Assembly (NCBI GenBank): GCA_963930775.1 | Contig: OZ005689.1 | Coordinates: forward strand, 6,797,569-6,861,568 | Length of the DNA stretch: 64,000 nucleotides | Origin: Cliona cf. orientalis | Lineage: Eukaryota > Porifera > Demospongiae > Clionaida > Clionaidae | Direction of reading: 5' to 3' | Shown here: positions 16,272 to 56,300 of the stretch, in pieces | Layout: every line of letters starts with the position of its first letter | Position numbering within the stretch: the stretch's first letter is position 1 | The notes under the pieces: generated by a model | What the model was told of the DNA's origin: nothing | Database searches by the model: none | What the model saw: only the letters and a program-made list of their open reading frames with translations | Position numbers and translations under genes: made by a program

Positions 16272-16275
16272 TTAA

Positions 16276-17287: not shown

Positions 17288-17291
17288 TTAA

Positions 17292-31352: not shown

Positions 31353-31701
31353 GTCAATAACACAGGCTACATGTCTACATTCATTAATATTGTCATTTGT
31401 TATCAAAATTAATGTGCAATAATGAAAATTAATAATCCTCCCTCATCCTTTTTTGAAACAAGCTGCATGGATGAAAAACTTAATAATATACTAATTTGCA
31501 TGGCCTTATCATAGGTCACTTTTATCGTTCATTTTTGTTAGGTCCATACATTGTACAAACATTAGGGCCAAAATAATAATATTATTACTACAATTGTAAT
31601 ATTGAAAATCATATCATGAGTGTTGATAGTGCATATTTGGTGAGTAACACTAGAAGTGCTTCATTACAATCATGATTGTATACACACACACACACCTTTA
31701 G

Positions 31702-31824
31702 TTTCCTTGGACAACAGATCTAACACTGTTGCTATAGCTGGAGGAGTTGCTGGTGGTTTGGTGGTATTAGGAATCTTGAGTTTGCTTTCTAGCATTGTAG
31801 TGGCTGTCAAGTTAAGGAAACGAG
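31702..31824 (+). CDS. Gene B transmembrane exon
   Basis: 41 codons: SLDNRSNTVAIAGGVAGG, then a Leu/Ile/Val-rich helix ending VKLRKRG. Phase 1/1. Homologous to the TM exons of genes A and C. Confidence 0.85.
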
Positions 31825-31971
31825 GTAGGTATAGCTATATAGCTAGCTACAAACACTTTCCCAGCTAAGTAATCACATGGGGACATATTTGAGAGTAATA
31901 AATTATTAATAGCAGCTAGCTAAGAGTAAAAATGTCTCTGAATGTATATAAGGGAGAGTATTATAATAATT

Positions 31972-32483: not shown

Positions 32484-33776
32484 GTAGTCAAATAAACATT
32501 GAAGCTATTTATGATGAGCCAGACTGTATTCAACAATACAAATCGAAGAAAGACAAAGACCCGGAAATGGAAGAGTGTCCGGCATATGGACAAGCAAATA
32601 AAGACGTAGAACTGGAAGAGTGTCCGGCATATGTGCAAGCAAATAAACACTAAGCCCTCACTTTTGCCTGATTGTGGAATGTGATTCAGTAGTAACCACT
32701 AATTACGTTATCTTGCATTTGCGGTGCTTCGCGCGCGCGCCGCGCCATATATTGTAGTGTATCGGCAACGCCCACACTTACTCTTCGTGACGTCACAAGG
32801 TCCTGAGGCCGGCCAGAAGCAAGAGAAAAATGGTCCTGGTCGACATTTTACAAGTTCATAGTCAACACGAGCAAGGGATTTAGCCAAGGATATTGCACTG
32901 GGCAACTCTCGAGGTCAAACTGTCCATGTGATCTTCATATGACTTGGCTCTGACCTTTCGCATCAGGTTGTCCAGTAAGCTGAAATCGAGCTAGCCACGA
33001 GTGTGGCGATTGATTGGTGAGCGATCGCCTCCATATCTCAACAATGAAGACAGTTGAAGAAACGAAACTTCTTCCATCCTTTAGTAGAGTTGTAAAACTA
33101 ATCTCTATGTGAGTCAGCTAGTCTACAGAGCTGTTTATACTATGACAGTACGTTATTGAATGTATAAATTATTTTCATTTTTCATGATCTAATAGTTCAA
33201 CAAATACAGTAAATATTACTTAGTTAAGCAAATATACTATACTGCTAGTGGTACTCTCCTTCCAGCTGAAGTATGAAAGCCTCAGCAGTCTTCGCATCAG
33301 GTTGTCCAGAATGTTGAAAATGAGTCGGCCAAACATTTACGGCCGATATTCGGCCGTGTATAGCGAGGTAGCTACGCTTTGGACACGAACTGAACGTGCC
33401 CATATGCTATTTAGCTAGTCTTCTTACAGTCTGCTGTGTTTCAAAACCCAGAAATATACCAGTAGCCAGAAACTAAACTTTTTTGTCATGCATGTTGACC
33501 GCGATCGCGGTCTCCATATGTTCAATACAGCAACCGCAAACCGGAAGTGATCAGGCAAAAGCGAGGGCTTAGCGTATACTGAAAGACGTAGAACTGGAAG
33601 AGTGTCCGGCATATGTGCAAGCAAATAAAGGCGTAGAACTGGAAGAGTGTCCGGCATATGTACAAGCAAATAAAGACGTAGAAATGGAAGAGTGTCCGGC
33701 ATATGTACAAGCAAATAAAGACATAGAACTGGAAGAGTGTCCTGCTTATGTTGAGAAAAGGAAGGATGACATTTAG
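32484..33776 (+). pseudogene. Gene B tail exon split by a transposon
   Basis: The exon begins GSQINIEAIYDEPD and has two ECPAY units. It then enters the transposon at 32648, where translation would stop after NKH (TAA ending 32653). The rest of the exon resumes at 33585 with four more ECPAY units and a TAG at 33774-33776. Before insertion the tail therefore had six units. If transcribed, the present gene would end with a two-unit tail. Confidence 0.8.
32648..33581. mobile_element. 934-bp non-autonomous DNA transposon in the gene B tail exon
   Basis: Left end CACTAAGCCCTCACTTTTGCC; right end, reversed, CAGTATACGCTAAGCCCTCG with CTTTTGCCTGAT following. AAA is duplicated on both sides (32645-32647, 33582-33584), and removing the element plus one AAA restores the 15-residue repeat register. 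CACTA-like start and 3-bp duplication suggest the EnSpm/CACTA group. No transposase frame. Confidence 0.75.
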
Positions 33777-36675: not shown

Positions 36676-36733
36676 ATGCTAAAGAGACTGATAGCGTGCG
36701 TGGCGCTGGCCTGTGCACTTCTCGCCACTAGAG
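36676..36733 (+). CDS. Gene C exon 1: signal peptide
   Basis: 58 bases, MLKRLIACVALACALLATR then a phase-1 donor GAG|GTAAAT. Homologous exons at 18392 and 50313. These short exons were identified by frame, donor phase and identity among three copies. Confidence 0.8.
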
Positions 36734-39700
36734 GTAAATATTGAGTGTGTGTACGTTTTGGTGTTTTCAATTGCATGGCGTTTAATAATATGTAGATCTA
36801 CAAGGCTGCCATAATCTTTTGACAATAAATCCTAAGGAACATACCCCAAACTATTATTCGTAAGATTATAGTCCATCACAATAATATTATTTCATTGCTT
36901 GTATCACAATCATCGTCCACTATAGCAATTATATAATTAGGATTTTGTTTTCTATAGAGGGATTGCGCAAAACGATTGGCTAATTATTAACGCTTCATAA
37001 ATTGACGACACCCCTTGTGGGCAAAAGATGCCGTTGCCCAGTAGCTTGCATGTAAATGAGCGATCCTTTTTTTTTTAGAAAGCAGGCATGTTGAGCCCCC
37101 TTTTGTTCATGCATAGATATAGTAGATGGTTCATGGATGTCACTTTGGAGTGTGTTAAGTAAAAAAAATTCGGGTTTTGTGCAACGAAATTGCTCGAAAC
37201 CCTACGATATCTCACTGACCTTGCTCGCTTTTTACACAGGAGGCCATGGGCTTATCGAACTCTTGCCCACAATGGGTGTGGTCAATGTGGGCGTGCATGG
37301 TACCGCCGATCTAGCTCAGTGCTAATTGACACTTCTGAATCACAGAGTGAACAAGACTGTTAATTGGCCAATCATTTTGCGGAATCCCTCTATAGAGTTT
37401 TGTCAGGCTGCTACAGTTCGTAGCTGTCCTTCAGCTTTCACTGCTGTAAAGTAATAACAATAAATCCAGAGATAATCATGGAAAACACTGTACCTTATGG
37501 GAGTAAAAGGCTAAAAAATCAGTCCTAGTCTTGTTTATGGGAGTATGTGTGTGCGTACTAAAATCTCGCAGGGCCAAGTTAATGATTGGGACTGCGAAAG
37601 AGTGGCTATACACAGCTACGTTGGGGATATCGATTGTTAGCTACTTGAGTTTATACAGTTTTGTAATATTTCTGATGTCACAATAATAGCCATAAGGTAT
37701 ACATAAATAGCCTAGGCTAATGCAAACATGTAACCTGAATAATATTATAAACATTTAATAACTACATGTTAGTGATGTTAAAGAATCATTTATTTACTAG
37801 TTGTAGCTAGATTATGAAATGGCATGGGCCGGGATAGAAAGACAATTGGAATGCCCACTGTATACTTTCATACACCGACACAGTGACTGTATCTCTAAAT
37901 ATCTTCTATTTTACATAAACTTAGGAACTTGGCTGCAATTTACTAAATGTCCAATATACGTAAATATCCACTATACTTTCATAAACCCACACAGTTACTG
38001 TATCTCTAAATATCTTTTATTTTACATAAACTTAGGACCTTGGCTGCAATTTACTAATTTAATGTCATATACGTAAATATCCACTATACTTTCATAAATC
38101 CCCACAGTTGTAGCATCTCCATAGTAAAATTTTAATGTCTTCTATGATTCACGTCAAATTTCAATTGTGATTTACGTAAATGTCCAATAGTTTTGTATAC
38201 GTAAATCCCCAGACGTTTCTGATTTTGGCACAAACAACACCCCATATTAATTTGCCTTCTTTGAAAACATCCCTGCCTCCCTCTCTCCCCAGAACTACCC
38301 TGGTATTTCTCTTCTGTTAAAATGTTCTAGGTAGCGAGCTAGCTTGGGTGAAAACTTTCTCCCATGAAATTATTCTCTACACTAAAATTAGACTTGGTCA
38401 ATAATATTATTATTATGGGGAATATGCCCCTCCCGTTGCTATTAAATTTATCTCTCCAGGTTTGACTCAGACACCTGCCCAGTGTGTGCACAACCTTCAG
38501 ATTGTGACAGATCGACAAGATTTGTATATCATGCCCGGGGTGGTCAACTGCATCAGCTGCAACATTGTGAGTGACATTGCCTGGGTAATTGAAGTGGATG
38601 GTGACCGTTTTCCAGCAACATCACCCACAGCAGCCCAATTTGTCTCTACTATGAATAACTATCTGATTATTGCGATGCCTGAGGACTATGTTCTACCGGG
38701 AACATCGGGAAGGCAAGATATTTTCTGTTACAGTAGTGCTCTTGCTGGCTCACCTTCTCTGGAAGCAAGGCTGGCCTCTCCAGGTAAGATCAGTATCAAA
38801 GGTGGTAACGGACTGTACATGTGGTCTCAAGAATGAAGGGAAAAAAACTGCGCTGTCCGTCTAAAATCCATTGCCTATAATATGGTGAATACGAAATTCT
38901 CAACTCTAAAACAGTTCAATCTAGTTACATCCCCAGTATAAATTTACTTTTTTGCGGTTATAAGGGAATTATGTTGTAATTATGATGTAACCTATATCGT
39001 CATAGCGCTAAAATTCGGAGCCTTTACAGAACACTTCTGAGACCTGAAAATCGATAGAATCATATTTTAACTTACATACATACCCAGCGAATACATTAAA
39101 AGCTGAGTGCTACTTTCTCCGACAAGTAATGCTGACCGAACTTCACGCGTTCTCTTGGCTGACGTAATCCTGTGGAAAGCTAGCCTTGCGCTATTTATAG
39201 CACGCGTCATGCCACGACCGATCTGAAGTTCGGAAGCTGTAGCGTGCTGTCGAGTTCATCTCCTTTGATTGAAGCATCGAAACTCGAAGTCGAGAGTCGG
39301 TCTTAGACTCCATCTCTGCGATTGAGGCCCCGGCATCGATGTGTATATCGACGATCTTTTACCACATGCACCATTAGAACTATGTAGCTACTGGGGATGT
39401 GGTCAAGTTTTTCATTACACACTAAAAATTAGCTGATACCCCTTAATTGGCTCATTTCAGACTGAGGGGGAATTGTCCACACAAGTATCTGGGGACAATG
39501 CATGTACTGTCCTAATTAAAAGAGGTGTCCTCATCATGCTCAGAAGTGCTCATTATTATTTTTTTGTCGATTCTCCAGTTCTGAGAGAGCCATTATTTGA
39601 GGATATGACTATCAGAGAGGGAGCGACACTGAAGGTCACCTGCATCACTAGAAATATTCAAGATATTACCACCTCAGAGATCCTTGATCCTCGTGGAGTT

Positions 39701-42700
39701 ACCGTTCCAAGTGCAGTAGGAGTCGTCACGATAGAGAATGCCACGAGAGCTGCTTCTGGTGCATACACCTGCCTTGTTACTAACACCCTTAACAGTAATA
39801 CCATCAATGCAACGTCCACCATCATCATTGAATGTAAGTTCAGTGCATCAAGATTACTGGTTTTCCTTAAAGTCTGACATCTCTAATTAATTTTTACACC
39901 ACTGAATTATGGAAAATAGCTTCCAGTTTTTGGCAACTATCATCACATACATACATGTGTGCTATAAATAGACTAGAATAGTATGCACACTGCTTAAATA
40001 TTGGACGAAACTTGAGCATGACGTAAGTTTTGTATTGAAGTTTCTGCATCAGAGCAAAAGATTTTCAAGGTATTTTGATGATCATTTCTCTTTTATGAAT
40101 CTACGTACCTCTATCTGAGCATGAAACACGCATCCACAGTATTAGATGATGATTAAATGCAAAGTATATTATAAATCAAAAGTATGTACCTGCCGTATGG
40201 CAACCATTAATAGTATGTTTTTGTGTTTCGACATTTGGACGCAGTTATGAATGCATAGCTGGTGATTGTGTACCAACCAGTCTTCGATATTCCAAAGATG
40301 CTATGATTTTGCTTGTCAATCAATGTTAAACTGTAAACAGGTTCCGTAAAATTATTATGGAGAACACTTAGTGTGTGTTTCGAATCTGCTTTGACTCCAC
40401 CCACTGTACAAACAAATGTATCTCTATGACTTGGAGTGTATGCATGCAGCTGACAAAATCATATCAGCATCAATGACCTATGCAGTATATTATTATTATA
40501 CAGTTACTCGTTATTGAACTATAGGCCATACAGAGTAGTTGTGAAGTGCTTATAATAGTGTGTGTTAATATAGTAATGTTTATAGAAGGCATTAAAGAAC
40601 ACGATTGTGGGTTTTTTTTTAGTTAAGTAATGTTTGTGGACTAGCATTGATAATTATTTCTAATGCTGGGAGTGGGCCTGCCAGCCAGCCTGGGAATACA
40701 GTAACATCTTCATTTATTAATATATTATTGCTTACTACTATACTTATTATTGAAAAATTTCTGGCAAAGGTAGTCAATTGCTCCATATACAAATATTATC
40801 AAAATGGGAACTCATAATTTAAAAATGCTAATTTCTTGCTTTAAACTGGATCATGCATTCATTAGAATATGTAATAGTATGGATATCATTATTATGTCTA
40901 CATTCATCAGTGTCTGTGATATTGCTTACTTTCTTTTTTGTTTCTCCTATTATACATGCAGTTGCCCCTGAGGTAACAGCCCGTAACGACACAGAGACAC
41001 CCCACCGCATCATCCTGGGGGAGGAGCTTCGCCTCAGCTGCGGATACGTGGGCGTACCCGGACCCACCGTACAATTCTTCCAAAATGACAGCATGTTGCT
41101 GATGAATGGTATGAACGGTGTGATAATCATCGGGGGAACCCCTAGTGATAACGAGATCACCTTGGTGATCGGCTCCGTGGGATGGATGAGCGGAGGGATA
41201 TATACGTGCAGAGCCAGCAACAATGTGGGAACGGATGAGGTGGTATACTCCGTGACTATTCTAGGTAACTCCTCTACCGCATCTCTACCTCCATCTTGAT
41301 TTCAGTCTCTGCATGGCTGTAGGCCAGGGAGGCTGTGTGTTATTTATGTGTGCTTGATACATGTATGCAGTGTATGTATAGTAGGTATTGTTGGCAAGCT
41401 ACGATAGTCGAGGATAGCTAATTAGCCTATGTTCGTTCATACATGTGTATCAGCAGATTTCAGTGTCTCTCTTTCTCCCCACTCTCTCCCTCTCCCTCTC
41501 TCTCTCTCTATCTCTCTCCCTCCCTCTCCCCCTCTCTCTCTCCCTCTCTCTTGTCATGCTTGCTGAAAAGAAACAGTAACATGTACCCGCATATATACAC
41601 ATGCACTTCTATTCAATGCAACATCCATAATCAATCATTCACAGCGAATAATTCCGAATAATTATTAACTCATGCACGCACACATACTCACGTATGCGTA
41701 CACACACATAGTCCCTGCTGAGCCGGTGGCTAATTTGATGGTGACTGGGCTCACTGAGACTACAGTGTCCCTGTCCTGGATGACTGGGTTTGATGGGTTC
41801 ACTTCCATCACTGGCATTGAGATCCTGGTTACCCCCGAGCGAGGTGCTCCCCCCTCCACGAACCCCATTGTCCTGCCCCCCTCTAATCAAACAATCATCA
41901 GTAGTCTCCTGCCGTTCAGAGAGCACGAATTCTCTGTGGCCGTATTGAACCTTGTGGGCACCAGTGAGAGGAGGAATATCACCGCTAGTACTCTATCTCT
42001 ATGTAAGTATACTATGGACCTTTTCTGAATGAGAATAATTGTAATAATAATGGCTTTCTCTCATGTTCTCTCTCTCCCTCCCTCCCTCCCTTCCTTTCTC
42101 CCTTCCTCTCTCTCTCCCTCATAAATTTGACATTCGGATATAATATATCTCAAGCAAAATTGCTTATTTTTTTTGTTGTTTTCCTCCTCCCAGCGTTGGG
42201 TGCCCCTACTAATCTCAATCTTGTTGCTCTATCCTCAACCAGCCTTCACTTCACTTGGGACGTAAGTGCATGTTACGACGCAAATGCGATCCTGACCTGT
42301 TCGCGATACGCCGGTACGTACGCCGCCGCGATCGCTGGACGATATGGATGGGAGGGGCTGGGAGGTCAGGGATGGGTTGCGAATGGTTAGCAGGGTTAGT
42401 GTGGGAGGGGCTGGGAGGTCTGGGGATGGGTTGCGAATGGTTAGCAGGGTTAGTCTCTAGGGTTTGCGTATACGTGGACTGGAGGGGCTGGGTTGTGAAT
42501 GGTTAGGAGGGTTAGTGTGGGAGGGGCTGGATTGTGTAGGAAAATAGTTGAAATAACCGCTGCCGGCAGCAACAACGGTGGTGGCCGAGTGGTTGGGCTC
42601 TTATGTATGCATGGGACGGAATAGAACGGGTTCGAATCTTGCCATACACTTTGACTTTTTTCTTTTTTTTCCCTGTCAAATTTTTCTAAGTGTTGATAGA

Positions 42701-45700
42701 TCACATTTGCGTCGTAACAGTGCATACATTATGTGTAACATTATTCGGTATTCTGATCTACAGTGTCACCATAATATCTGTTCCGTGCAGAATATAAAAC
42801 CAATTTGATATTTTGTTCCCTAGCAAATTTTCCGACTATGGATAATTTGTATGGGTATGCATCGTGACCATTCTTTGGTTTTATGCACACGTGCTTTATT
42901 GCTCTGCTTTAATATGCGTATACATGTATGCAATATTGCAATGTGAGTGTGTGTATATTATGTTTCTCTCTCTCCCTCCCCCTCTCCCTTCCCTACTGCA
43001 GCCTCCTAGCTTTGATCCTGACACGACTGATGATCCCAATTTTTATCTCATCCAATTTTCCACTGGGGAAGGTGTCATAAACTTAAACATTTCTGCAAGT
43101 GAGCCTCGGGAGCGAACTTTTAATCAGCTGGCTAAGGGTACAGAGTCAGGATTGATGTGGTAAATGATGCTGGCAATGGAACAATGTTCAGTTCCATACA
43201 ACAAGAGACACTTGTTGATCGTAAGTTTTTATGTTGATCTATCGTATAGCGTGAAATTTTCGAGGGAGAAAATCTTCACGAATTTCTTGATTTTACAGCC
43301 ACAAAATTTTAGGCATGAAAGTTTTCTCCACGAAATGCTCCCTTCCTACCAATCCACAAAAAATTTTCTCCCTCGAAAGTTTCCCACTATACAGTAGTTA
43401 TCCCCCAGGACTAGGGAAGATACTATGCACCGTAGTTCGTGAATATTTTATATCTAAAATATTTCATGCGATTATTTTTCGCATTAAGTAATTTTCAGAC
43501 AAACAACCCTGTACTACATGTAGTACACATAATTTCATTGTGATAATAATCAGTGATTTTCGGTTATTACTGGATTGATACATGGAAATTTTTGCTGGAT
43601 GAGCCCAGCTTGCTAGGTATAGCTTTGTAATGCAGGAAATTAAAATTAAATTGGTGGGCCAATGCAGCCATATCCTGTATGCAATCGTTAACACAGGACA
43701 AACAATTAGTGTGATAAAGTTTCACATTACAGCTTACACTGTAGAAACCCCTCCTATGGTACTGGTGTTACGGCTTAGTGCCACAGGTCTAGTCATAACA
43801 TTTGTACTGTTGGTATCACTATAATATTATTGTATAGTGGGAAACTTTCAAGGGAGAAGAGGGAGAGAGAAAGACATCAAAAGCAGTGCCTAGCTTTGAG
43901 AAACCAGCAGTATTACAGTGACTATCGTCACTATCTTGCATACATAATTATTAATTTTACATGAAGCTGTTTTCCAAACATGCATTGAGGGTGAACAGTG
44001 TTCATGATCAACCAGGTTACCCACCATTCACAGCTGATTGTTCATGTAATGGTAGAGAATGGGAAATTTATAATGTAAACACTTTGGGAGTGAGCCTGAT
44101 CTGTTTGGGCACTGCAACTGCAGTATCAATGTTGATAGGATTGGTGTATGTACTGATGAATAAAACAGATAGCACTAGAGCTCTGTCTTTATAGCTTCTG
44201 GCTATTGATTTGTTTGACTATTTTCACTGCTGAAGGTGATAGCATTCTAATACACACTATTATGGCATGGACTATCAGCCGTGAGAATTAAATGAAGTAA
44301 AGATGTCATTTTTTAGCCGCCTTTGGCAGCTCAATAAGCCCTTGGTATGACATAGATGATAATTAGGAATCATAAGTGGGTGTGGCCTGATGAGTTGTTT
44401 GTCATCATCAGATAAGTATTTAATAGCTACTGCAGCAGGCTTCCTCTGACTCTGATCTCACTGTATAAAATAATATTATATTGATAATATTATTGCAAAT
44501 ACTGACACCGTCGGAGCACGCCTGTGGCTGTTGGCTTAGAGCTTCCTTACTACACTGCTTTGTTTGTCCACTACCATGCCCTACCCACATCTCTCTCTCT
44601 CTCTCTTCTCTCTCTTTCCTTCCCTCCCTCCCTCCCTCTCCCTCCCTCCCTCCCCCCAGCTCCCAGTCAGCCTCAGAACTTGGTGGTATTAGGTGTTGGT
44701 GCTGGAGCTCTGCTTGCCAACTGGACTGCACCGGCTGATAACGGAGGTAGACCTCTCTCAGACTATCACGTCATTATCGACAGCATTGACTTCAGCCAGA
44801 TGATACCAGTTCCTGGGATGACATCACTGCTCATCAGAGACAGCCAGCTTGTGGAGAATACAACTTACACGTGAGTTTATGATATTATTAATTCTTTAAA
44901 AATTTACTGCTTATTGGTAGGATTTAAATTTGGCCATTTGGGTCCCATCATTGGAAGCTTGATATAGCAGAGAAATAAATTTATAACGTAGTTGTTAACG
45001 TGATAAAATATCTTGCTCGAAACTTTCCATAGAAGCATGTACAATATTATTATTATTATGTACATGTGTACATTATAGAACTGTGAATTATTATTCCATA
45101 GAGTGCGAGTGAGTGCTGCTAATGCTGCTCAAGGATTCGGAGCTAATGCCACTATTTTGGCGAGAACTCAGTCTATTCGTGAGTCTCACACACTCACACA
45201 CACTGACAGATTAATTTTAGCACTACAGTGCACGTATACACTCGCATGCAGTGCTATGATAATGTCAATCTGACCTTCCTAATATGGTTTCGATTGTGAC
45301 ATGAATTGGTATAGCGTGCCCTCTCCTTCTCATTCCTCACTGCTAATGATATTGCAGCATACCAGTGCAATAGACTTAGCCAAAGTGGTCGTAAGTGTCC
45401 AATGAATATTATGACTGTGCTAATCTAGACTGCACACCCACCCCTGTAGGGTGCCATAATATTTGAAAGCTTAACCCCACACTAACTCCTCTCTCTCTCT
45501 CCCCCCCCCCCCCCTCTCTCTCACTCTCTCTCTCTTTCTCTCTCCCTCTCTCCCTCTCTCTCTCTCCCTCTCTCTTTCCCTTTCCCTCTCCCTCTCCAGT
45601 TGAGCCTCAGGCTATCTTTGATACGCCCCAGTCAGATGCTGAACGGTCCACCAACGGCTCCGCTGTGATTAGCTGGGTGAACCCAGGAGGCACTGTCGAC

Positions 45701-48700
45701 TACTACGTGATACAGTACGTCCTAGCTCGAGATTCAATGGGATTTGAGTCGAACAATGTCGTGACTGTTGTAGTTGGTCCCAATGATACGTCTGTTACGG
45801 TCGGTGATGGGAATCTTTTGCCTGGGGCTAACTACAGCTTCCGTATTGCCGTCAACAACAGCCGAGGTTTGTCCGCCTTCAGCCCTCAGGGGAGGTTTGA
45901 AACACTCAGTAAGCCAGGATAGATAGTAACATAATAATATTAGCTATATAGTAATGTAAAATTTGGCAGGGAATTGTATAATACTTACAACATGTAGCTA
46001 TTACCAGATAAAGATATAATATATGTACATATATCCTGATTCACCCTTGTATCCTAGGTAACAGGGGTGTTATAACTAAAATATTGACCTCCCCCAGGCA
46101 ATTATAATCCCCTGTGAACACCATAGCGCACTGCACTAAAAATATGCCAGCCAATGACTTCTACCAGATAAATGCAACCACTAAGAAACTGACCAATCAG
46201 GATATATATCAGATGTCGCATGGTAGGCACGTGTATTATGGATTATAAAGCCCCTCCCCCTCGGGCTGCGCCCTCGGGGTCATGGGCTTTATAATCCATA
46301 ATACACTCCCTACCATGCAATATCTATTACCTACAATACAATTGATATCTGTTTGCAATTGGGACCTACTGTATAAGCCTGTAAATCTACTGATTTCCAA
46401 TAATTTACGTATGTAATCAACTTTTTATTGGCTCTGTCCTGCATTAGGTATATGCATGTGATGTATTGTACATGCTCATTATAACCGTAAATTGCTAATA
46501 TTTCGTTATTAAAATATTTTCGGATAGCCCGGCTTGTGCGGAAAGTAAACACACGAAAATACATGCGCAATATTAACGATAATGCGGTACAGGGTCGTTT
46601 GTCTGAAAATTATTTAACGCGAGAATTTAAATATTTTAGACACAAAATATTCGCTATTTACTGTATATATTCTTAAGATCTTGCTAATTGGAAGTGAAGT
46701 TTATTGGGATTTGATTTATCCCATACTAGTATTGACAAACATGATGACACTCCGCTATCATCCTCCTTCCCCCTATTACATGTATAAAGCCTGACCCTGC
46801 AATTATATCAGTGTATTTATTCTCCTTCCCCTCTCCCCTTATGCAGAGCCTGACCCTATAATTATCACCTTCGTTATTCTCTTTCTTCCTCCCCCTTCTT
46901 ATAGAGCCTGACCCTTCAATTATCAATGTAATTACTCTCCTCCCCTTCCCTTCCCTTCAACCTTCTTATAGGGCCTGACCCTGCAATTATCAGTTTAATT
47001 ATTCCCCCCCTCCTCCCCTCCCACCCTTTTCATAGAGCCTGACCCTGCAATTATCACCGTGAGCCACATGAACCCAGTACTGGTGGACACTACTGTTCAG
47101 CTCAACTGCTCTGCCACTCTGAGAGGTACTATCATGTACAGCTGGATGAAGGACAGTAGTGCTCTATCGAGCGATCCGCAGTTCCAACTTAACCCCACCC
47201 AAGGATACCTCAGGATCACCATGGTAGCGGAGGACAGTGCGGGAATGTATGTGTGTACAGCGAGGAATAGTGAAGGCACCGAGACAGCATCAGCACCATA
47301 CACACTGCTAATTCAGCCAATAGAACGTAAGGAGTTAACAGCTAATCCTTTAGAAGAAATTTTCTTGACTCATGGTTAGGTTTTGAGGCCAAAACCTTTT
47401 GTTGTTTGAAGCAATCCACTAAAATAACGAAATTTAATGATGGTTATAGTAGATTTAGAGTCTAAGGGTTTGGTCCATCCTGAAAGAGGAAGAGAAATGA
47501 GGAATGGAGTACTAACTACTCTACCCACTGTACGAATGAATGTGTCTCTATGGGATGTATGCAGCTGACAAAATCACATCAGCATTAATTGATGACCTGC
47601 GCAATATTACATTTGCCTCTTACAGAACTATAAGTCATACAAAGTAACCGTGTAGTGCTTATGCTACTAAAGTATATATTATAAGCTAGTAATGTTTATA
47701 GAAAGCATTAAAGAACGAGTAGCTAGTATTTTTTTAGGTAATATAAGTATAATGTTTATAGACTAACATTAACAATTATTTCTAATGCTGGGATTGGGCC
47801 TTCCAGTCAACCAGGTCAATAACACAGGATGCATGTCTACATTCATTAATATTGTCATTTGTTATCAAATGTGCAATAATGAAAATTAATAGTCCTCCCT
47901 CATCCTTTTTTGAAACAAGCTGGACAAGAAACTTATTAATTTACTAATTTGCATGGCCTTATCATAGGTCATCTTTATCGTTCATTTTTGTGACGTCCAT
48001 ACATTATACAAACATTAGGGCCAGAATAATAATATTATTACTACAATTGTAGTATTGAAAATCATATCATGAGTGTCGATAGTGCATATTTGGTGAGTAA
48101 CACTAAAAGTGCTTTATTACAATCATGATTGTGTACACACACACACCTTTAGTTCCCTCGGACAACAGGTCTAACACTGCTGCTATAGCTGGAGGAGTTG
48201 CTGGTGGCTTGGTGATATTAGGAATCTTGAGTTTGCTTTCTAGCATTGTAGTGGCTGTGAAGTTAAGTAAACGAGGTAGGTATAGCTAGCTACAAGCACT
48301 TTCCCAGCTAAGTGATCACATGGGGACATATTTGAGAGTAATAAATGATTAATAGCAGCTAGCTAAGAGTAAAAATGTCTCAATGTATATAAGGGAAATA
48401 TTGGCGGGAATTAAATTTGGCGGTTGAGCCCCAAATCGCTCTTACAAGAATATTGGCGGTTCGGTACAGGATCGCCATACGTATTATATGCGAGTAGGAA
48501 ATTTTGGCAGATTTTTAATAAAAATTTTGGCGGTTCTAATATTGACCGCCAAACCGCCAAATTTAATTCCCCACAAAATTTCCGGCTATACGGTATCAGA
48601 CTTGTGTATATTATTGTAGCACAGTGACCCTGCAAAAAGTACCATACAATTTAGCTACCAACGTAATGGCTATAAAAATAGAAATGAGACATTAATTGTT

Positions 48701-49263
48701 GGATAGATGTGAGCATTCCAAAATGGTACATACCGGTATATATTATAGCTAAATGTAGTTGCTTTCATTGGGATGATTGGACAGCCATGCCCCATACTTG
48801 AGAATCAATTCATTTCACAGGGATGTGATGTTATACAAGTGGGATATTAGCTATAGGGTTCTGGATACAAGTGGGATAATAGGGTGCTAGAAAGTTTCAT
48901 CAGGGAAGAATTTTCACCAATTTACCTCCTGGTCACGTGGTTATCATTACAGGTAGTCAAATAAACATTGAAGCTATTTATGATGAGCCAGACTGTATTC
49001 AAAAATACAAGTTGAAGAAAGATGAAGACCTTGAAATGGAAGAGTGTCCAGCATATGGACAAGCAAATAAAGACGTAGAACTGGAAGAGTGTCCGGCATA
49101 TGTACAAGCAAATAAAGACGTAGAAATGGAAGAGTGTCCGGCATATGGACAAGCAAATAAAGACGTAGAACTGGAAGAGTGTCCGGCATATATACAAGCA
49201 AATAAAGACATAGAAATGGTAGAGTGTCCTGCTTATGTTGAGAAAAGGAAGGATGACATTTAA
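36676..49263 (+). CDS. Gene C: Ig3-FN3x4-Ig-TM receptor with ECPAY-repeat tail
   Basis: Thirteen exons: 36676-36733, 38460-38783, 39579-39833, 40962-41264, 41712-42002, 42194-42261, 43002-43220, 44660-44870, 45102-45178, 45600-45908, 47036-47326, 48153-48275, 48953-49263. Order: signal peptide, Ig, Ig, Ig, FN3 x4, Ig, TM, cytoplasmic tail. Between-domain junctions are phase 1; the junction inside FN3-2 is phase 0 and inside FN3-3 is phase 2, consistent across copies. The coding sum is 2840 bases, 7 short of a codon multiple. The shortfall is a 7-bp loss in FN3-2 (near 43146) compared with gene B. As assembled, the frame therefore stops in FN3-2. It may be a recent loss, an allele or an assembly error. 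A full-length protein would be about 948 residues. Adhesion or recognition is the likely role from the domain mix; the ligand is unknown. Confidence 0.65.
36952..37395. mobile_element. 444-bp TIR element in gene C intron 1
   Basis: CTATAGAGGGATTGCGCAAAACG is inverted at the right end as TTTTGCGGAATCCCTCTATAG. TTTTGT occurs on both sides. Shared with gene D (50567-50977) but absent from gene B, so it entered before C and D separated or was lost in B. Confidence 0.65.
37856..38200. repeat. 111-bp tandem repeat in gene C intron 1
   Basis: About two and a half units containing ATATCCACTATACTTTCATA, CAGTTACTGTATCTCTAAAT and TTGGCTGCAATTTACT; period 111 judged from TTAGGA at 37921 and 38032. One and a half units recur in gene D intron 1 at about 61650-61790. 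An incidental open frame runs through it. Confidence 0.6.
38460..38783 (+). CDS. Gene C exon 2: Ig-like domain 1
   Basis: 108 codons, phase 1/1: GLTQTPAQCVHNLQI, then INC/ISC-type cysteines, IAWVIEVDG, and YLIIAMPEDYVLPGTSGR followed by a Cys. The spacing Cys-Trp-Cys suggests a divergent Ig fold; I cannot name it more precisely. Confidence 0.75.
38928..39400. mobile_element. Insert in gene C intron 2 carrying an inverted promoter piece
   Basis: ACATCCCCAGTA on the left is inverted on the right as TACTGGGGATGT. Genes B and D lack the insert. From 39271 to 39370 its reverse strand reads GTGGTAAAAGATCGTCGATA, then GAGATGGAGTCTAAGACCGA and GTTTCGATGCTT, matching the 5' blocks of genes B, C and D. 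Confidence 0.65.
39579..39833 (+). CDS. Gene C exon 3: Ig domain 2
   Basis: 85 codons: EGATLKVTC...AASGAYTCLVTNTLNSN, phase 1/1. Cys-Cys spacing and the D/A-x-G-x-Y-x-C motif are standard for Ig domains. Confidence 0.85.
40370..40705 (+). pseudogene. Vestigial FN3 half-exon region (gene C, intron 3)
   Basis: A segment matching the pre-TM introns at 31080-31350 and 47510-47815, including a T-run, an AG and a frame reading VCGLALIIISNAGSGPASQP. It lies directly upstream of the Ig 3 exon that gene B lacks. Confidence 0.5.
40962..41264 (+). CDS. Gene C exon 4: Ig domain 3
   Basis: 101 codons: APEVTARNDTETPHRIILGE, ELRLSCGYVGVPGPTVQFFQ, then SGGIYTCRASNNVGTDEV, a typical I-set Ig. Phase 1/1. Present in gene D (63737 onward) and missing in gene B. 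Its base composition is more GC-rich than the neighbouring exons. Confidence 0.9.
41712..42002 (+). CDS. Gene C FN3 domain 1
   Basis: 97 codons in one phase-1/1 exon: PAEPVANLMVTGLTETTVSL, WMTGFDGFTSITGIEILVTP, then FSVAVLNLVGTSE. Confidence 0.85.
42194..43220 (+). CDS. Gene C FN3 domain 2 (two exons, frame interrupted)
   Basis: Exons 42194-42261 and 43002-43220 joined in phase 0 after TGGGAC. Compared with gene B, TACATTG is missing after GGTACAGAG (43137-43145), so the frame shifts and meets TAA at once. A possible alternative donor AAGG|GTACAG at 43136-43138 would restore phase 1 to the next exon but would remove the last FN3 strands. A 447-bp element sits in the internal intron. Confidence 0.6.
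42272..42718. mobile_element. 447-bp composite element with tRNA-like module, copy 2
   Basis: GTTACGACGCAAATGCGATC on the left is inverted as GATCACATTTGCGTCGTAAC on the right. AGTGCAT is duplicated at 42265-42271 and 42719-42725. Gene B has the empty intron. The inside has the same G-rich minisatellite (GGGAGGGGCTGG, GGTTAGCAGGGTTAGT) and tRNA-like stretch as the element at 34398-34894. Confidence 0.75.
42577..42642 (+). ncRNA. tRNA Ser/Leu-like pol III module
   Basis: GTGGCCGAGTGGTTGGGCTC (42581-42600) matches the start and A box of Ser/Leu-type tRNAs, and GGTTCGAATCTTG (42629-42641) is a near-consensus B box. T runs follow from 42655. It lacks a full cloverleaf partner sequence, so it is SINE-like. 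Confidence 0.6.
43248..43393. mobile_element. MITE next to the FN3-2 exon (gene C)
   Basis: GAAATTTTCGAGGGAGAAAAT is inverted near 43365-43387. Shorter than the gene B copy (27218-27424) by an internal deletion; same position in the gene. Confidence 0.55.
44660..45178 (+). CDS. Gene C FN3 domain 3 (two exons)
   Basis: Exons 44660-44870 and 45102-45178 with a phase-2 internal junction: LLANWTAPADNGGRPLSDYH, SQLVENTTYT, then VRVSAANAAQGFGANAT. Confidence 0.85.
45600..45908 (+). CDS. Gene C FN3 domain 4
   Basis: 103 codons, phase 1/1: VISWVNPGGTVDYYVIQYVL, VVVGPNDTSVTVGD, then LLPGANYSFRIAVNNSRG. Confidence 0.85.
46205..46320. mobile_element. Hairpin MITE in gene C, intron after FN3-4
   Basis: GCATGGTAGG...GTATTATGGATTATAAAGCCC pairs with GGGCTTTATAATCCATAATACAC...CCTACCATGC around a short GC-rich loop. 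Gene B lacks it (30110-30170). It probably forms the right part of a larger insert from about 46030. Confidence 0.65.
46488..46670. mobile_element. Decayed AT-rich MITE
   Basis: ACCGTAAATTGCTAATATTTCG on the left is partly inverted as ATATTCGCTATTTACTGTAT on the right. Related strings (CGCATTAAGTA, AAACAACCCTGTAC) occur near 27465-27555 and 43437-43520. Confidence 0.4.
46788..47045 (+). repeat. Five reiterated 3' splice-site cassettes (gene C)
   Basis: Five copies, 55-65 bp apart, of pyrimidine tract plus (C)ATAGAGCCTGACCCT plus AATTATCA (near 46790, 46847, 46904, 46971 and 47035). The last one opens into the Ig exon at 47036. Each contains its own acceptor-like AG. Confidence 0.65.
47036..47326 (+). 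CDS. Gene C Ig domain 4 (membrane-proximal)
   Basis: 97 codons: PDPAIITVSHMNPVL, VQLNCSATLRG, MYSWMKDSS, then DSAGMYVCTARNSEGTE. A complete Ig with both cysteines and Trp; phase 1/1. Confidence 0.9.
47620..47814 (+). pseudogene. Vestigial FN3 half-exons in the pre-TM intron (gene C)
   Basis: Matches 31180-31352 in gene B. The second piece still reads VYRLTLTIISNAGIGPSSQP, but the sequence between the acceptor-like AG (47737) and it contains stops. Confidence 0.5.
48153..48275 (+). CDS. Gene C transmembrane exon
   Basis: SDNRSNTAAIAGGVAGGLVI, then a Leu/Ile/Val helix ending KLSKRG. Phase 1/1; homologous to A and B. Confidence 0.85.
48393..48594. mobile_element. MITE with TTTGGCGG repeats, copy 3
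   Basis: Same family and same intron position as the copy in gene B, but the left end is shortened and the inside is longer (202 bp). Confidence 0.6.
48953..49263 (+). CDS. Gene C tail exon: YDEP plus five ECPAY units
   Basis: GSQINIEAIYDEPDCIQKY, a Lys/Asp linker, then five 15-residue units alternating ECPAYGQANKDVEL and ECPAYVQANKDVEM, the last being ECPAYVEKRKDDI and stop. The 45-bp units are nearly identical, so copy number can change by slippage or unequal exchange. After the TAA the frame continues LEECPAYGHA to a second stop, matching the real C-terminus of gene A. Confidence 0.85.
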
Positions 49264-49526
49264 TTGGAAGAGTGTCCAGCATATGGACATGCATAATAAT
49301 GTGTGTGATATTAATTTTGGTACTTAATATTATGCATAATATATTATTCATGGTGTATGATAATCTACTGAATAGTGTCTTGTAAACCACAGTAGCTATT
49401 TTATCATTCTTTCATGCACATAATATACTCATTAATGTTCGTGCCCATCCGATCCCCAATACGTATAGTTTTGCATGCGTTCATATAATTGGGGTGTGGC
49501 TAACAGACACTAAGAAGTTGGTGGTG

Positions 49527-50370: not shown

Positions 50371-53300
50371 GTAAAGATTGAGTGTGTGTGCGTTTTGGTG
50401 TTTTCAATTGAATGGCGTTTAATAATATGTACAAAGCTGCCATAATCTTTTGACAATAAATCCTAAGGAATATACCCCAAGCTATTATTCGTAAGATTAT
50501 AGTCCATCACAATTTCATTGCTTTTATCATAATCATCGTCCACTATATTATATTAGGATTTTGTTCCTATAGAGGGATTCCGAAAAAACGATTGGCCAAT
50601 TAACGCTTCATAAATCGACAACACCCCTAGTATATAGGCAAAAGATGCCGTTGCCCAGTAGCTTGTATGTAAATGAGCGATCCTTTTTTTTTTAGAAAGC
50701 AGGCATGGTGAGCCTCCTTTTGTTCATGGATGTCACTTTTGGAGTGTATTAAGTAAGAAATTCAGGTTTTATGCAGCAAAATTACTCGAAACCCCATGAT
50801 ATCTCACTGACCTTGCTCGCTTTTTACACAGGAGGCAATGGGCTTATCGAACTCTTGCCCACAATGGGTGTGGTCAATGTGTGCGTGGTACTGCCGATCT
50901 AGCGCAGTGCTAATTGACACTTCATAGAGTGAACAAGACTGTTAATTGGCCGATCATTTTGCAGAATCCCTCTATAGAGTTTTGTCAAGCTGCTACAATT
51001 CGTAGCTGTCCTTCAGCTTTCACTGCTGTAAAGTAATAGCTAGCTAACAATAAATCCAGAGATGATCATGGAGAACACTGTACCTTATAGGATCGAGTAA
51101 AAGGCTAAAAATCAGTCCTATAGTCTTGTTTATGGGAGTATGTGTGTGTGTACTAAATCTCGTAGGGCCAAGTTACTCAGGTACACTAAGGCATGGGAGT
51201 ACAATTTCGCGTATAGCGGCCGTTTCCGCTCATGAATATCATTTGCATCTAATTTGCATATCATTAACGAGCGTGCATGTGCTCGCTCTCCATAATTATG
51301 TTTTGTATTGAGCGGTGAGGCAGCTAGCAGCCAAGAAGCTATAATTATATTGATCGATTTCCAGAGCAGAAGATGATAGTTTATGGCAGTAAAAAGCGAC
51401 TCATCAGAATGTTAGATACCTCTGCTTCATAGATTCATCTGGGAGAAATGGATCTGGTTGCTTGTAGGTGAGTGGCAACAAGAAATACATGGACTAGCAG
51501 TGGATTTTGGTGCTTGTTGAGCACACAAGTCGACACCTCGCTCAAGAACAAGCCTTCTATCCATCCTCCTAGATAGTTTGAGATACTCTAGCATCTATTT
51601 AACTACCATACGAAGTTAGGAGAGAAACTAAGGTCATCTTCTGCTCCGGAATTCACGATTTTTGTTTGTAAATATCGTGTGCCGTTTTTGGTTGCCACGC
51701 CCACAGAAATGGTTGCTATGGTAACAAATTTGGTCCTAAATTAGATTAAGGTACCAACAATAAAAAAAAACCAAGTCTGATGTACGTATCTCAAAGACTT
51801 TTCCAGATACAGTGAGTTTTGTATCACCATATTTTTGACACAAAATTGCATGTCCCATGCCTTAATGCACCTGAGTAATGATTGGGACTGGATGCGAAAG
51901 AGTGGCTATACACAGCTACGTTGTGGATTGCTAGCTACTTGAGTTTATACAGTTTTGTCTAATATAATGTTTCTGATGCCACAATAATAGCCATAAGATA
52001 TATTATATGAATAGCCTAGGCTAATGCAAACATGATATGTAACCTGAATAATTATGAACATTTATAAACTGTTAGTGATGTTAAAGAATCATTGTTGTAA
52101 GTTATGAAATGGCATGGGCCAGGATAGAAAAACAATTGGAACTGGGAGATCTGAACAAATTATAGTTTGTATCCGTGTACCAGATTATACTCCTGTGGCT
52201 GCTATATAGCTAGCTATAGTTCATGGTGGTAATAAAAAAAATTACAACTATAGTGTAGCTAGCTTCTTTGCGGTGAAGGACTCCACATGCCAATACCCTG
52301 CAGCTGGAGCTTGTACAAGCTCCGGCCTCAAGAAGGGTCTTTTTGATTTGAGGAAGAAAGCTAGACTCTAGATCTAGGTAGCCTAGGTATATTAAAGCTT
52401 TCCCTTGGGCTGGGTTGTTGGCAAGCATCCTCTTAGTTTCCATCACCTTGTGATACTTGAGATGGGGCTATGCCAGTTTTTTTGTGTATGTGTGTATGCA
52501 GGTTGTGGCACAGCGGAATGCACAGAATATTTACGAGATAGCAACAAGGTATACATGAATAGCCTAGGCTAATGCGAGCATGTAAGTTAAACCTGGATAC
52601 CATAATAATAATATTATTATAGCTATACTTAATGTAATGTTACGTATAAAAAATTTCAATCAAGTTTGAAAAATGCACGCTTTTCTGGTAAAGGTCATAA
52701 ATCACCCCTGCTAATATAATTTCTTATGTCAAATTGGTTGTAGTCGATTAACTACGGTATATAAAATTTGTTAATGAATGTTTAAAAACTGTCAGTGATG
52801 ATAAAAGAATCATTATTAAAATTTAGTTATAAATTATTCCATTATGAAATGGCATGGGGATAATATTAGCTATAGAAAGAGAAATGGAACTGGGAAGTCT
52901 GAGCAAACAAGGTTTGTATCTGTACCAGATAATTCCTGCAGCTGCTATAGTGTAGTTGAGTGTTCTGTTTGCAAACAGTTAGAGCTTTCCTGGTTTAAAA
53001 ATAGCTGGGTATATAGTTGACAAGCACACACTCAATCTTCTTATTAGCTGAGTGGTGCGGGTTTGTGCATGACGTGTGTATGCGTGCGCATGTACACAAC
53101 TTTTTAAGGTACCATTTAATTGCGTGGGCGTGAGCGTCAGGAATGGCTAATTCAATTAGCGAATCGTGAAGGGGCGTGGCCGAAGAGGCCATACGAGTGC
53201 TTTTGGTCGAAGGTGGGCGTGTCCAGAATCGGCCAGGGATGATTATGCGCGTGTAATTAGCGACCGGAAGTGGCCCCTGAAGAAAAGGCCGGTAATTGCC

Positions 53301-56300
53301 CACATCAAAGCAAGATCAAAGCATTCTTGCTTAACTATTAACCGCAACGACAAAAAAAAAAAGCTAATTAGGCCTAATTAAGCATGTGGGCGTGTTCCTG
53401 GCACTGTGTGGAGTGTGTGCGTGTGCGTTAATGCAGGTTTTATTGCTTCCGATTGGGCGTGGCTTCACAGGCCAGTGCTTGGACATCGGGGCCGGGGACT
53501 TGGCTGCGGCGATAGGTGGGCGTGTCCCGGATGCGGTGGTGACCTTTGAACCCGTCCAGGAGGCTTTGGGGGCGTGGCAGGAGGTCAAAGGTGAGGCCAT
53601 GTCTGTTAATGAGGCACTGTACGGCGGTGCGATCGAGGGGCCTGTACGGCTGGACGGAAGCTGACGATGGTTTGAAGCGGATGTGGTTGCGATGACGTGT
53701 TGTTACTCTGCCCACACAGGAAATGAGGTGAGCTCTTGCGTGGGCGGTGTGGCAGAACGGCCTCCAAGTGTTTGTGTGTGTTTTGGCCTTGAGGAAGCTG
53801 TGTGTTTTAATTGGGATTGATTGTGGGCTTCCGGTGGACATCCGGTGGTTAGTAGGTACTTGATTGAGAATGGTGGTCCTTGGGGAACAGGGTGGGGCTG
53901 TTTTGGGCGTGGCCTGGCCCCTCCCTTCCGGCTCGGCTTCCGGTCCATTGAGGATATTAAATGAACACTTCCGGCTCTAGCAGCCACACCCCTGAGACCT
54001 GTGCAATTAAAAGGGCGTGGTTACACAACATGCACCTCACTAATGACTTTGATGTGGTTTAGGTGTCACATCCCCCACCTCACGCCCACGCAATTTAATG
54101 GTACCTTAATTTTGTATGTGAAATCCCGTACCCAGGCCCTTTGAGGAGAAGGAGAAAGGGCCTGGTACACACTGTGTGTGCATGCGTTATTTTCTCAGTA
54201 AAAGTTGAGAATTCGTGTTTTTGTCCGCTTATTACGTGAATCTTGAACTCAGAAATGTACCTAAATATCATATTTGTTGGCAGCGTTTTGGGCTAAAGAG
54301 CGCCAGTTGTGACCAATTAATTTTAGCTATCATTGACAGAAGAATAATAAAGAAGCTATGAGAAGGACCTTGATTCACATTTAGTCAAGTTTTTCAATGA
54401 GTATAGACACAGAGGCAGTGAAGGGACTTTGTCAGATCGCTGAAGCTCAAGAAGGTTAGTTTAAAATCAAATGAGAGCAAATTAAAGAATTTCAATATCG
54501 AGTCTGTAGGCTTCACTGACTTCAGATGCTTAGTATACGCTGTCCGTACATGTTCGACCGCGTGGTAGCGACAATACCCAGTGAATTATATTAGAAAATG
54601 CTCTGTAAAATTTGCGCATATGTGTACAGCGTGTACCAGGCCCTTTCTCCTCCTCCTCAGAGGACCTGGCTATGAGGCTACCCTTGATATATATAATTGA
54701 CTTTTCAAACATGACTATCTAGCTAGAAAAGGCTTAAATGATCTTATTGAAGACTTGGGACTTGCTTTCATATAATGAAGGGAGACTGTCTGATAATAAT
54801 CAATACTTACATTAATTTTACTGGTATAAATTGCAGCAGATATTTACACAGTTTGTGACAAATTCTGTATAGTGGCAGACATTTTAGTGATGTTGCAGGA
54901 ATTTACAAAAGTAGTGGATGTTTGCAAAAAAAAACACAGTGGACATTTATCATCATCCTCATAGGTCATGTGTGTAACAACCAGTCGAGCCCTTTTTACT
55001 AGCGCAACGCTGAGCAAGCGCCTGACAAGGATAGACAGCACCAATTCTGATTATTCTGAACAAGTCATACGGTTATATATGCACAAAAGAATTTAATTAA
55101 ATGACATCACTTCCTATTACGTTACACATCCCCCTCCTGAGGCCATTGCTTGCCCTCAAGCGGGTTAACAAAAAGCAAAATTAATAAGCACAAAAAGCAA
55201 AATTAATAAGCACAACATAACTATAAATTTTTCAGCTATATAGTCATGATCTGTCTGGGCCCTGGTCATAGACCTGGTAATCGGACCCTCACTGCGAACA
55301 GGTACAGCTTTAGCTCGACTCCCTTGGGGGAGGGCAGTTCGCTTCTTCTTCTTGCTTTTAGATCTCTTTTTGCGACCAGTCCAGCTGGCATCAGTCATTT
55401 CTGGGTAGCATCTCCTGAGTCTGCTCAGAGCCACAAACAATGAAGGATCTCCTGGCTTCTCGATAAGCTGCACCTCTGCATTGGTGGGTGTCAAACTCAG
55501 GATTCTGAACGGTCCATGGTACGGTCTCGCCAACTTCCAGTTCTTTCCAGTAACATCACCAGGCATATACACCATTACTCGCTCTCCCAACCGGTACTGT
55601 GGATTTCCAGCTTGACGATCATAGAACTCCTTCTGTTTGGCCTGAGCCTGCCGTATGTTCTCTAGCGCTAACTTCTTTGTCTTCGCCAGGCCCACTAGAA
55701 ACTCTGTACGGTAATCTTCCATGTCCACAAGGTAGGCAGGTTCCACTTCATCCAGCACACTTCCAGTAGGGAGCCGCGGATCACGACCATATAATAAAAA
55801 GAAGGGGCTCTCCCTGGTAGACTCTTGTACTGTGGATCGGTATGCAAATAATAAGAGAGGGAGCTGCTGGTCCCACTCCATTCCTCCACTGTCTGAGCTT
55901 TTGGAGATCATGTTTATTAACGTTGAGTTGAACTTCTCAACTAAGCCATCGGTCTGTGGATGATATCCACTCGTGTTCACCTTCTGAACGCCCAAAATAG
56001 AACAGATCTCCAAGATCAAGTCTGAGAGGAAGTTAGAACCACGATCCGATGGTAACTCTTGTGGAACCCCATGCCGGCACACAATATTCTCCACTAGCAA
56101 TCTGGCTATAGTCTGAGCTTGTTGATCAGCAACTGCAAAGGCCTCCACCCACTTTGTAAAGTAGTCCATAAAAACTACAACGTACTTATTTTCACTTGAA
56201 GTAAGGGGCAACTGCAACACATCAACAGCGACCCTATGGAAGGGCTTCAACACTGGTATTGGCTGCAGTGGGGGGCGCACTGCTCGCCCCGGTCCTCGGC

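Follow-up and report, generated by a model that had tools for sequence, protein, structure and literature searches.

The exon at positions 48953-49263 of a 64,000-nucleotide stretch of the genome of the sponge Cliona cf. orientalis (GenBank assembly GCA_963930775.1, contig OZ005689.1, here C1, 6797569-6861568; hereafter the window) would encode the cytoplasmic tail common to a large family of type I receptors whose genes are clustered in this sponge. In these tails, a membrane-near tyrosine site of the form Y[DE]xP is followed by units with a CPAY core. Comparison of the tail frames indicates that the tail is under strong position-specific purifying selection, with the constraint N-terminal of the Tyr, and that one tail serves outer parts unrelated to each other. 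We consider it likely that this is a tyrosine-phosphorylation tail of some kind.

The tail exon of gene C and its family

The original prediction described the exon, which belongs to gene C, as a tail with a YDEP site and an ECPAY array, and this is confirmed. A phase-1 acceptor AG (48951-48952, forward strand, as are all features of genes A, B and C given below) precedes a frame that begins SQINIEAIYDEP; YDEP lies at 48979-48990, five in-frame ECPAY units lie at 49042, 49087, 49132, 49177 and 49222 with a spacing of exactly 15 codons (45 bases), and the frame ends in the stop codon TAA (49261-49263). The YDEP codon pattern was seen three times in the window against 0.22 expected, with 1 of 100 shuffles getting to three, while GARTGYCCNGCNTAY was seen 15 times against 0.02 expected, a number reached in none of the shuffles. 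The exon encodes 103 residues, 28 acidic and 11 basic, a make-up that would suit an unfolded chain. A remnant of a sixth unit (LEECPAYGHA) follows 3' of the stop codon at 49264-49296 (unit 49270-49284). The equivalent codon is TAA in gene C and TAG in gene B, and the last unit past it is unused in both; gene A and loci L006 and L007 read through, i.e. reading continues in gene A.

The transmembrane exon of gene C (GGVAGGL..., then KLSKRG) is located at 48153-48275, is in phase 1 at both ends, with splice sites assigned by consensus only, and has a mean Kyte-Doolittle hydropathy of 2.54 across 19 residues. Joining its phase-1 donor to the phase-1 acceptor of the tail exon, the spliced product would read ...KLSKRG-SQINIEAIYDEP... 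across the junction. In genes A, B and C, a signal peptide, sushi or immunoglobulin (Ig)/fibronectin type III (FN3) exons, a transmembrane exon, a basic stop-transfer and the tail succeed one another, with splicing inferred from consensus. A gene at 7.017 Mb, with one Ig and two FN3 stretches, has the type I receptor layout too, although a signal peptide was not looked for there.

Genes A, B and C had each been credited with four to six repeats. This holds for gene C, with five, and for gene A, in which the tail exon (5421-5680) has YDEP followed by four units, of which one reads ECPTY. In the tail exon of gene B (32484-32653), by contrast, YDEP is followed by only two in-frame units because an insertion with terminal inverted repeats splits the array. 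This insertion, at which the frame meets a stop, spans about 0.93 kb (32644-33578); its 29-nt terminal repeats (32644-32672 and 33550-33578) are 90% complementary, and the displaced rest of the array, four units ending in the stop codon TAG, lies beyond it at 33582-33775.

When the genome was searched at protein level with three different tails as queries, the distinct tail loci on C1 numbered at least 40 at E <= 0.06 and at least 38 at E <= 1e-3; at least 36 and 34 of these, respectively, lie in a cluster that spans 6.67-7.17 Mb. One tail locus each was found on C2 and C14, and some loci of the family are broken. The ectodomains that precede the common tail differ, i.e. sushi domains in gene A and Ig/FN3 domains in genes B and C. 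With a single transmembrane exon as the query, we found 24 matches on C1 (E <= 0.1) and 26 genome-wide; thus, many tails have a similar transmembrane exon, although not each one was examined. In the C2 paralog, both CPAY cores are intact despite altered surroundings. At C1:6385348-6386030 (L019, minus strand), a doubled tail has Y[DE]xP and the array twice in one frame, and a decayed copy with the core CPVS adjoins it. Weak, closely spaced matches to the part comprising the first site and first unit (E 0.03-0.5) were also observed at C15:8060093-8083313 and at C3:9509452 and 9544391, and these are possibly a second, more distant receptor cluster.

The comparisons below use 29 tail frames with DNA, 26 of which provided 88 units; one false pattern row, at the chromosome-2 locus, was excluded (88 kept of 89). 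Ten additional short, broken or divergent frames (L035, two each at L030, L043 and L029, gene B beyond its insertion, and the second frames of L018 and L015) were kept outside this set, and together they give 39 frames. The number of units per frame varies from one, in a short frame, to nine. Among 74 core-to-core distances in the 29 frames, 65 are 13-17 residues and 23 of these are exactly 15, a variable spacing that gives the units the look of individual sites rather than of a folded repeat. The predicted 15-residue unit is therefore exact in gene C but not general: judged by these frames, the consensus ECPAYxQANKDxEx is the young version found in genes B and C and L002, and 15 is the spacing of this young subfamily only.

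Selection on the CPAY core and the first site

Cys is present at -3 in 87 of the 88 units, Tyr at 0 in 85 and Ala at -1 in 81, and CPAY is complete in 79; units within the family share descent, so that these counts are not independent events, and Pro at -2 was the anchor in the unit collection and in the tests of pN/pS (the ratio of non-synonymous to synonymous differences), so that its conservation there is not independent. No unit has Phe in place of the Tyr or Ser in place of the Cys, each of which is one base away. Among the 89 collected matches, one of which is false, 79 have Glu at -4 and 71 have it at -5. When the anchor was placed on -8 to -4 alone, leaving CPAY free, CPAY was present in 79 of 102 matches; in residue-shuffled tails the mean was 0.085 and the maximum 1.

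The pN/pS values were determined for 86 units, after exclusion of a decayed frame at 6.386 Mb with its two units. Up to and including the Tyr, pN/pS was 0.011 at Cys-3, 0.038 at Tyr0, 0.11 at Ala-1 and 0.16 at Glu-4; downstream, it was 0.69 at +1, 0.33 at +2 and 1.49 at +3. Synonymous differences between genes were large, with pS about 0.6. With gene pairs weighted equally, pN/pS was 0.044 (95% interval 0.006-0.102) for C/A/Y versus 0.76 (0.65-0.90) for +1 to +3, and none of 1000 bootstrap replicates over 25 gene frames reversed this contrast. Over longer stretches, it was 0.03 at -3 to 0 and 0.42 at -8 to -5, which are partly conserved. The same contrast was observed in first (0.04/0.56), penultimate (0.06/0.74) and last units (0.03/0.93), as well as in units with G (0.01/1.09) or V/I at +1 (0.03/0.42), the latter being the mildest. 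Moreover, the residues at +1/+2 fall into recurring classes, i.e. VE in 25, GQ in 19 and GH in 10 of the 86 units.

The first site, Y[DE]xP, is present in 27 of the 29 tail frames, and the remaining two, both divergent copies, read YEEL and HKEP. The search for it gave 28 rows, of which 27 are true and one, at 6.898 Mb, is false, an ECPAY unit followed by EKP having been taken and the real first site skipped. Among the true rows, E-3 is present in all 27 and Q+7 in 25; Tyr, +1, +3 and +4 were fixed by the search pattern and their conservation is not independent. When 10 tails were aligned without any anchor, no variation was seen at E-3, Y, P+3 and D+4. In all 27 frames with Y[DE]xP, a phase-1 AG lies 18-62 nt upstream of its Tyr, and in 24 of them there is one at exactly 26 nt.

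The site reads YDEP in genes A, B and C and in some paralogs, and YEDP, YEEP or YDYP in others. Thus, YDEP was correctly predicted as the tail site of genes A to C and is one form of a family-wide motif. The SH2 domain (Src homology 2) of Nck recognises pY-D-E-[PV], and the original assignment of YDEP to Nck specifically was too narrow: the spread of forms would fit the Crk-type YxxP rule better, and Pro at +3 together with an acidic residue at +1 was found in 27 of 29 tails. Crk SH2 domains are described as binding YxxP, and a crka gene has been reported in the sponge Amphimedon (PMC5043372). In total, these observations suggest that the first site is probably a classical SH2-type motif that is Crk-like and partly Nck-like.

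Possible readers of the tail and rival explanations

We propose that a Src-family-type kinase would phosphorylate the membrane-near site, E-[AV]-[VI]-Y-[DE]-x-P, which would then be bound by a Crk-type (or Nck-type) SH2 adaptor. The charged, probably disordered chain behind this site has as many as nine copies of [IVL]-x-[LM]-E-E-C-P-A-Y, and these would probably be read mainly N-terminal of the Tyr, as phosphotyrosine-binding (PTB) domains read NPxY: Pro-2 would allow a turn, hydrophobic residues are at -8 and -6, and Cys is in the place of Asn at -3. Valency would be set by copy number, and ligand-driven clustering via any of the ectodomains would make the tail a multivalent docking platform with a connection to actin or endocytosis. 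A PTB-type array is proposed because the constraint lies N-terminal of the Tyr and because of Pro-2, Ala-1 and the upstream hydrophobic residues. Altogether, one SH2 site followed by an NPxY-like array with Cys replacing Asn is a tentative reading, which we hold at somewhat less than an even chance. As to the readers of the CPAY array, a PTB-type domain is a prospect not far from evenly balanced, SH2 domains would be unlikely, and something else is somewhat unlikely.

SH2 specificity is described as lying C-terminal to the phosphotyrosine (+2 to +4) and PTB specificity N-terminal to it, commonly in NPxpY/NPxY; IRS-1 binds an NPApY peptide, and most PTB domains are reported to prefer unphosphorylated Tyr (PMC3507883). 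Phe can also be tolerated by those PTB domains whose ligands are unphosphorylated, and the same source shows an NMSF ligand for Numb (PMC3507883). Because such domains can accept Phe, the absence of Phe from all 88 units favours phosphorylation.

The genome contains 103 matches to SH2, 17 to IRS-type PTB and six to PID domains. One locus (L052, C13:172901-174501, minus strand) has three PTB domains in one open frame, which match FRS2/3 and Dok structures; LRRYG and EAGRRC are kept in the second and third of these domains but not in the first. At another (L053, C19:5399801-5400901), an SH2 domain closest to SHP-1/SHP-2 is followed by an IRS-type PTB frame. By their domain content, the proteins of these two loci are possible candidate readers of the tails. 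Around L053, a group of ten SH2 matches was observed at 5.39-5.52 Mb of C19. Separately, three tandem SH2 frames (2-577, 1980-2519 and 4387-4899 of L051, C1:6618901-6623801, minus strand) were observed at a distance of about 50 kb from the cluster's first tail. Because the place of the FLVR arginine reads YLVYDF in all three, the usual mode of phosphotyrosine binding is probably not available to these SH2 domains.

Several observations weigh against the proposed PTB-type array. We know of no PTB domain that prefers Cys at -3; NPxY requires Asn there, and it occurs in 0 of 29 tails. The hydrophobic residues at -8 and -6 lie in a stretch that is only partly constrained, and the partial constraint at +2 and the recurring +1/+2 classes could be used in an SH2 reading. 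Neither SH2 binding nor PTB binding of the canonical kind accounts for a Cys that hardly ever varies. A motif Y-x-x-hydrophobic, one each in 12 of 29 tails, could be a sorting or hemITAM-like signal. Moreover, the 39-frame set adds two cores in which Phe replaces the Tyr, namely YPAF at 6.706 Mb and CPGF at 6.785 Mb; the 29 frames themselves include SPSN, with Ser for Cys, at 6.694 Mb and CLAY at 6.721 Mb. Beside 92 CPAY cores, the 39 frames contain one CPAL core and four in which the Cys is replaced by Tyr; the ten additional frames brought YPAF, CPGF, YPTY, CPAL and a second YPAY as well as a chance match, CNTW. The interpretation as a phosphorylation tail is weakened because these Phe and Ser cores occur in odd copies. 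Finally, the divergent copies at 6.694, 6.706 and 6.721 Mb retain transmembrane exons, and they may be debris or a divergent working subgroup that lacks the tyrosine code. These neighbours, L034 (C1:6693956-6694168), L035 (6706447-6706641) and L037 (6720754-6721002), have a single core each, SPSN, YPAF and CLAY, respectively; the two that belong to the 29 frames have no Y[DE]xP.

The original prediction saw the array as a multivalent tyrosine platform for docking of phosphotyrosine readers, and a conserved, cytoplasmic, multi-tyrosine tail of type I layout under purifying selection was indeed found. It is nevertheless unlikely that SH2 domains dock along the entire array in the multivalent manner of p130Cas or nephrin: pN/pS is 0.76 on the specificity side, +1 to +3, versus 0.03 at -3 to 0, with +3 unconstrained, and Cys-3 and Pro-2 have, to our knowledge, no role in SH2 specificity. 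The recurring classes VE, GQ and GH, the value of 0.33 at +2 and the 103 SH2 matches in the genome speak for such a platform, as does the existence of multivalent tyrosine arrays elsewhere (PMC12071665; PMC12203975). Variable residues at +1 to +3 would also be expected if the core were a recognition site for one dedicated kinase only, made of the acidic residues at -5 and -4, Pro-2 and Tyr, and if varied readers used the C-terminal side. Several tyrosine kinases favour acidic residues before the Tyr, and Glu is common at both positions; this explanation leaves the near-invariant Cys and Ala unaccounted for, and we regard it as improbable. A constitutive tail for endocytic or WW/ubiquitin-ligase sorting (NPxY-, YxxPhi- or PPxY-like), in which phosphorylation is not needed, appears just as improbable, if not slightly more so. 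Pro-2 and Tyr0 are common to NPxY and PPxY, 12 of 29 tails have Y-x-x-hydrophobic, the two Phe cores are among broken or divergent copies, and the reported preference of most PTB domains for unphosphorylated Tyr would suit it (PMC3507883); however, NPxY and PPxY are absent from all 29 tails, Y-x-x-hydrophobic is missing in 17, and no unit of the 88 has Phe at Tyr.

A function centred on the Cys, with the Tyr secondary, has its best argument in the pN/pS of Cys-3, the least changed non-anchored position, and in the lack of Ser in the 88 units. Such a function, with parallels known elsewhere, might be redox sensing, palmitoylation, the binding of a metal or of haem through Cys-Pro, or a zinc clasp like that of CD4/CD8-Lck. 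The Tyr is nearly as constrained, however, the core spacing varies (65 of 74 distances 13-17 residues), unlike a fixed metal site, and the 39 frames contain four Tyr-for-Cys cores and one Ser-for-Cys core; palmitoylation, moreover, is not favoured by an acidic context far from the membrane. We consider a Cys-centred function quite improbable. Lastly, the array might be a coding minisatellite that evolves neutrally and is kept uniform by slippage and gene conversion. The 45-bp units of genes B and C are very alike in DNA (93% and 90% matches), and copy number ranges from 1 to 9 per frame. Yet CPAY is frozen across genes with a pS of about 0.6, a phase-1 AG precedes the first site in 27 of the 27 frames that have it, and the changed cores in decayed or divergent tails (CPVS, SPSN, CLAY) argue against a mutational cold spot at the core. 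A neutral minisatellite, which the pN/pS of the individual positions contradicts, was rejected, and we give it hardly any chance.

Gene layout in the window and comparable receptor systems

The probable signal-peptide exon of gene C, MLKRLIACVALACALLATRG, lies at 36676-36735, and similar exons were found in gene B (18392) and gene D (about 50313); in genes B and C it reads MLKRLI.CVALACALLATRG. The N-terminal exon of gene C that follows (38405-38833) is an open frame without Pfam match and has paralogs in gene B (24611-24973) and gene D (62079-62507). Two Ig-like domains span 39437-41296: the first frame (39437-39874) matches I-set with E 1.7e-4 and 22 bits, just below the cut-off of 23.7, and the second (40832-41296) with 1e-8. 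Among the FN3 domains (41669-45919), those at 41669-42025 and 45467-45919 are above the cut-off and that at 44506-44871 is below; a membrane-proximal Ig domain (I-set, 7.6e-11) lies at 46999-47376. Genes B and C have the same kinds of ectodomain part, i.e. a signal-peptide exon, an N-terminal exon that Pfam does not recognise, FN3 and Ig domains, and an Ig domain next to the membrane; the transmembrane exon of gene B is at 31701-31826.

The ectodomain of gene A consists of a signal peptide, a domain of about 150 residues without Pfam match (649-1192, including the signal peptide), a Cys-rich exon and sushi domains. Six further aligned copies of the N-terminal domain in the cluster (L032, L034, L037, L023, L045 and L050) are 78-82% identical to that of gene A. 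The two sushi (CCP) exons (1464-2247) have open frames at 1464-1838 (1.2e-9) and 2023-2247 (1.4e-11), and the transmembrane exon lies at 3037-3162. Exons similar to these ectodomain exons recur across the examined left part of the cluster. For the two N-terminal exons that remain without assignment, predicted structures had a mean pLDDT (predicted local distance difference test) of 50.9 and 33.7, values that do not warrant a fold search.

The start of gene D resembles genes B and C, and the gene carries Ig domains. Its Ig-type exons lie at the right end of the window (62079-64000), and sushi, transmembrane and tail exons were observed 2.5-4.6 kb further on (L045:2466-4571); the region is either two genes or an Ig-sushi hybrid. 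In addition, the window contains a pair of inverted repeats of about 1 kb with 96% identity (16272-17291 and 53104-54109), probably a recent mobile element.

Within the searches made, the claim that no named motif matches is borne out. The tail gave no Pfam family above the cut-off and no PDB sequence match; a pattern-based scan of prokaryote genomes and viral contigs gave 54 and 29 pattern matches, respectively, among which no relative was confirmed; and literature searches gave nothing relevant on an ECPAY or CPXY motif and, among the papers listed, no sponge receptor with such a tail. The immunoreceptor tyrosine-based inhibitory motif (ITIM) is [ILVS]xYxx[LIV] and the corresponding activation motif (ITAM) is a pair of YxxL/I. 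ITIM, NPxY and PPxY were rejected as explanations, each having no match in the 29 tails. With Y-x-x-hydrophobic occurring singly, not in pairs, the predicted distinction from ITAM and ITIM stands. The predicted absence of YxxL applies to genes A, B and C and not to the family, in which seven of the 12 tails with Y-x-x-hydrophobic have it as a terminal YGHL, YGHI or YAHI. Altogether, the array belongs to none of the tested motif families and, by analogy, would work like the multivalent phosphotyrosine tails of p130Cas and nephrin.

The p130Cas substrate domain is reported to have 15 YxxP motifs, and choanoflagellate transmembrane proteins with cytosolic YxxP repeats are described (PMC12071665, PMC5043372). 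The sponge tail resembles p130Cas/BCAR1 with Crk in its Y[DE]xP first site, in its multi-tyrosine region and in the early-animal age of the Crk-YxxP pairing; unlike p130Cas, it has one YxxP (or two where the tail is doubled, at 6.385 Mb), and its repeats are CPAY, mostly without P+3. Nephrin, described in PMC12203975 as an Ig receptor to which Nck can bind at three YDxV sites, shares with genes B and C the Ig/FN3 transmembrane build, a YDEx motif and a multivalent tail, but differs in the array unit, the spread of copy number, the gene cluster and the sushi-type members. Compared by sequence alone, NPxY/NPxpY ligands such as NPApY of IRS-1 have in common with the units Pro-2, Ala-1, Tyr0, the upstream hydrophobic residues and information N-terminal of the Tyr (pN/pS 0.04 for C/A/Y, 0.42 at -8 to -5 and 0.76 at +1 to +3); they differ in Asn-3, which is Cys in 87 of 88 units. 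EPIYA motifs of bacterial effectors and Pragmin are described with Glu-3 and Ile-1, or Leu or Val in related motifs (PMC3593179); they likewise are duplicated disordered tyrosine units with variable copy number and Pro-2, but the sponge units have Cys-3 (87/88) and Ala-1 (81/88) and are part of a receptor's own tail. Finally, the fester co-receptors (FcoR) of Botryllus are reported as 53 loci with Ig and sushi domains and with ITIM, hemITAM or core tyrosine motif tails (PMC12065747). They too are clustered receptors with sushi and Ig domains and tyrosine tails; the sponge tails lack ITIM and have a different motif, and allorecognition is not indicated for the sponge family.

Strong self/non-self reactions are well known in sponges. 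It is rather unlikely that the family is a sponge histocompatibility- or immune-type receptor complex with its own phosphotyrosine code, in which about 40 clustered loci with exchangeable sushi or Ig/FN3 ectodomains would share one tail, and in which YxxP would recruit an SH2 adaptor and the CPAY array, variable in copy number, multi-PTB proteins, e.g. that of L052, in place of ITIM/ITAM. This family offers a defined, conserved tail motif on one of the oldest animal branches. Being common to receptors with unrelated outer domains, the motif may be part of a signalling system of early animals. Should CPAY serve as a docking site for phosphotyrosine readers, it would add a motif for which no connection to any described class was found, and the family would represent a way to build a clustered receptor system that is not based on ITIM or ITAM.

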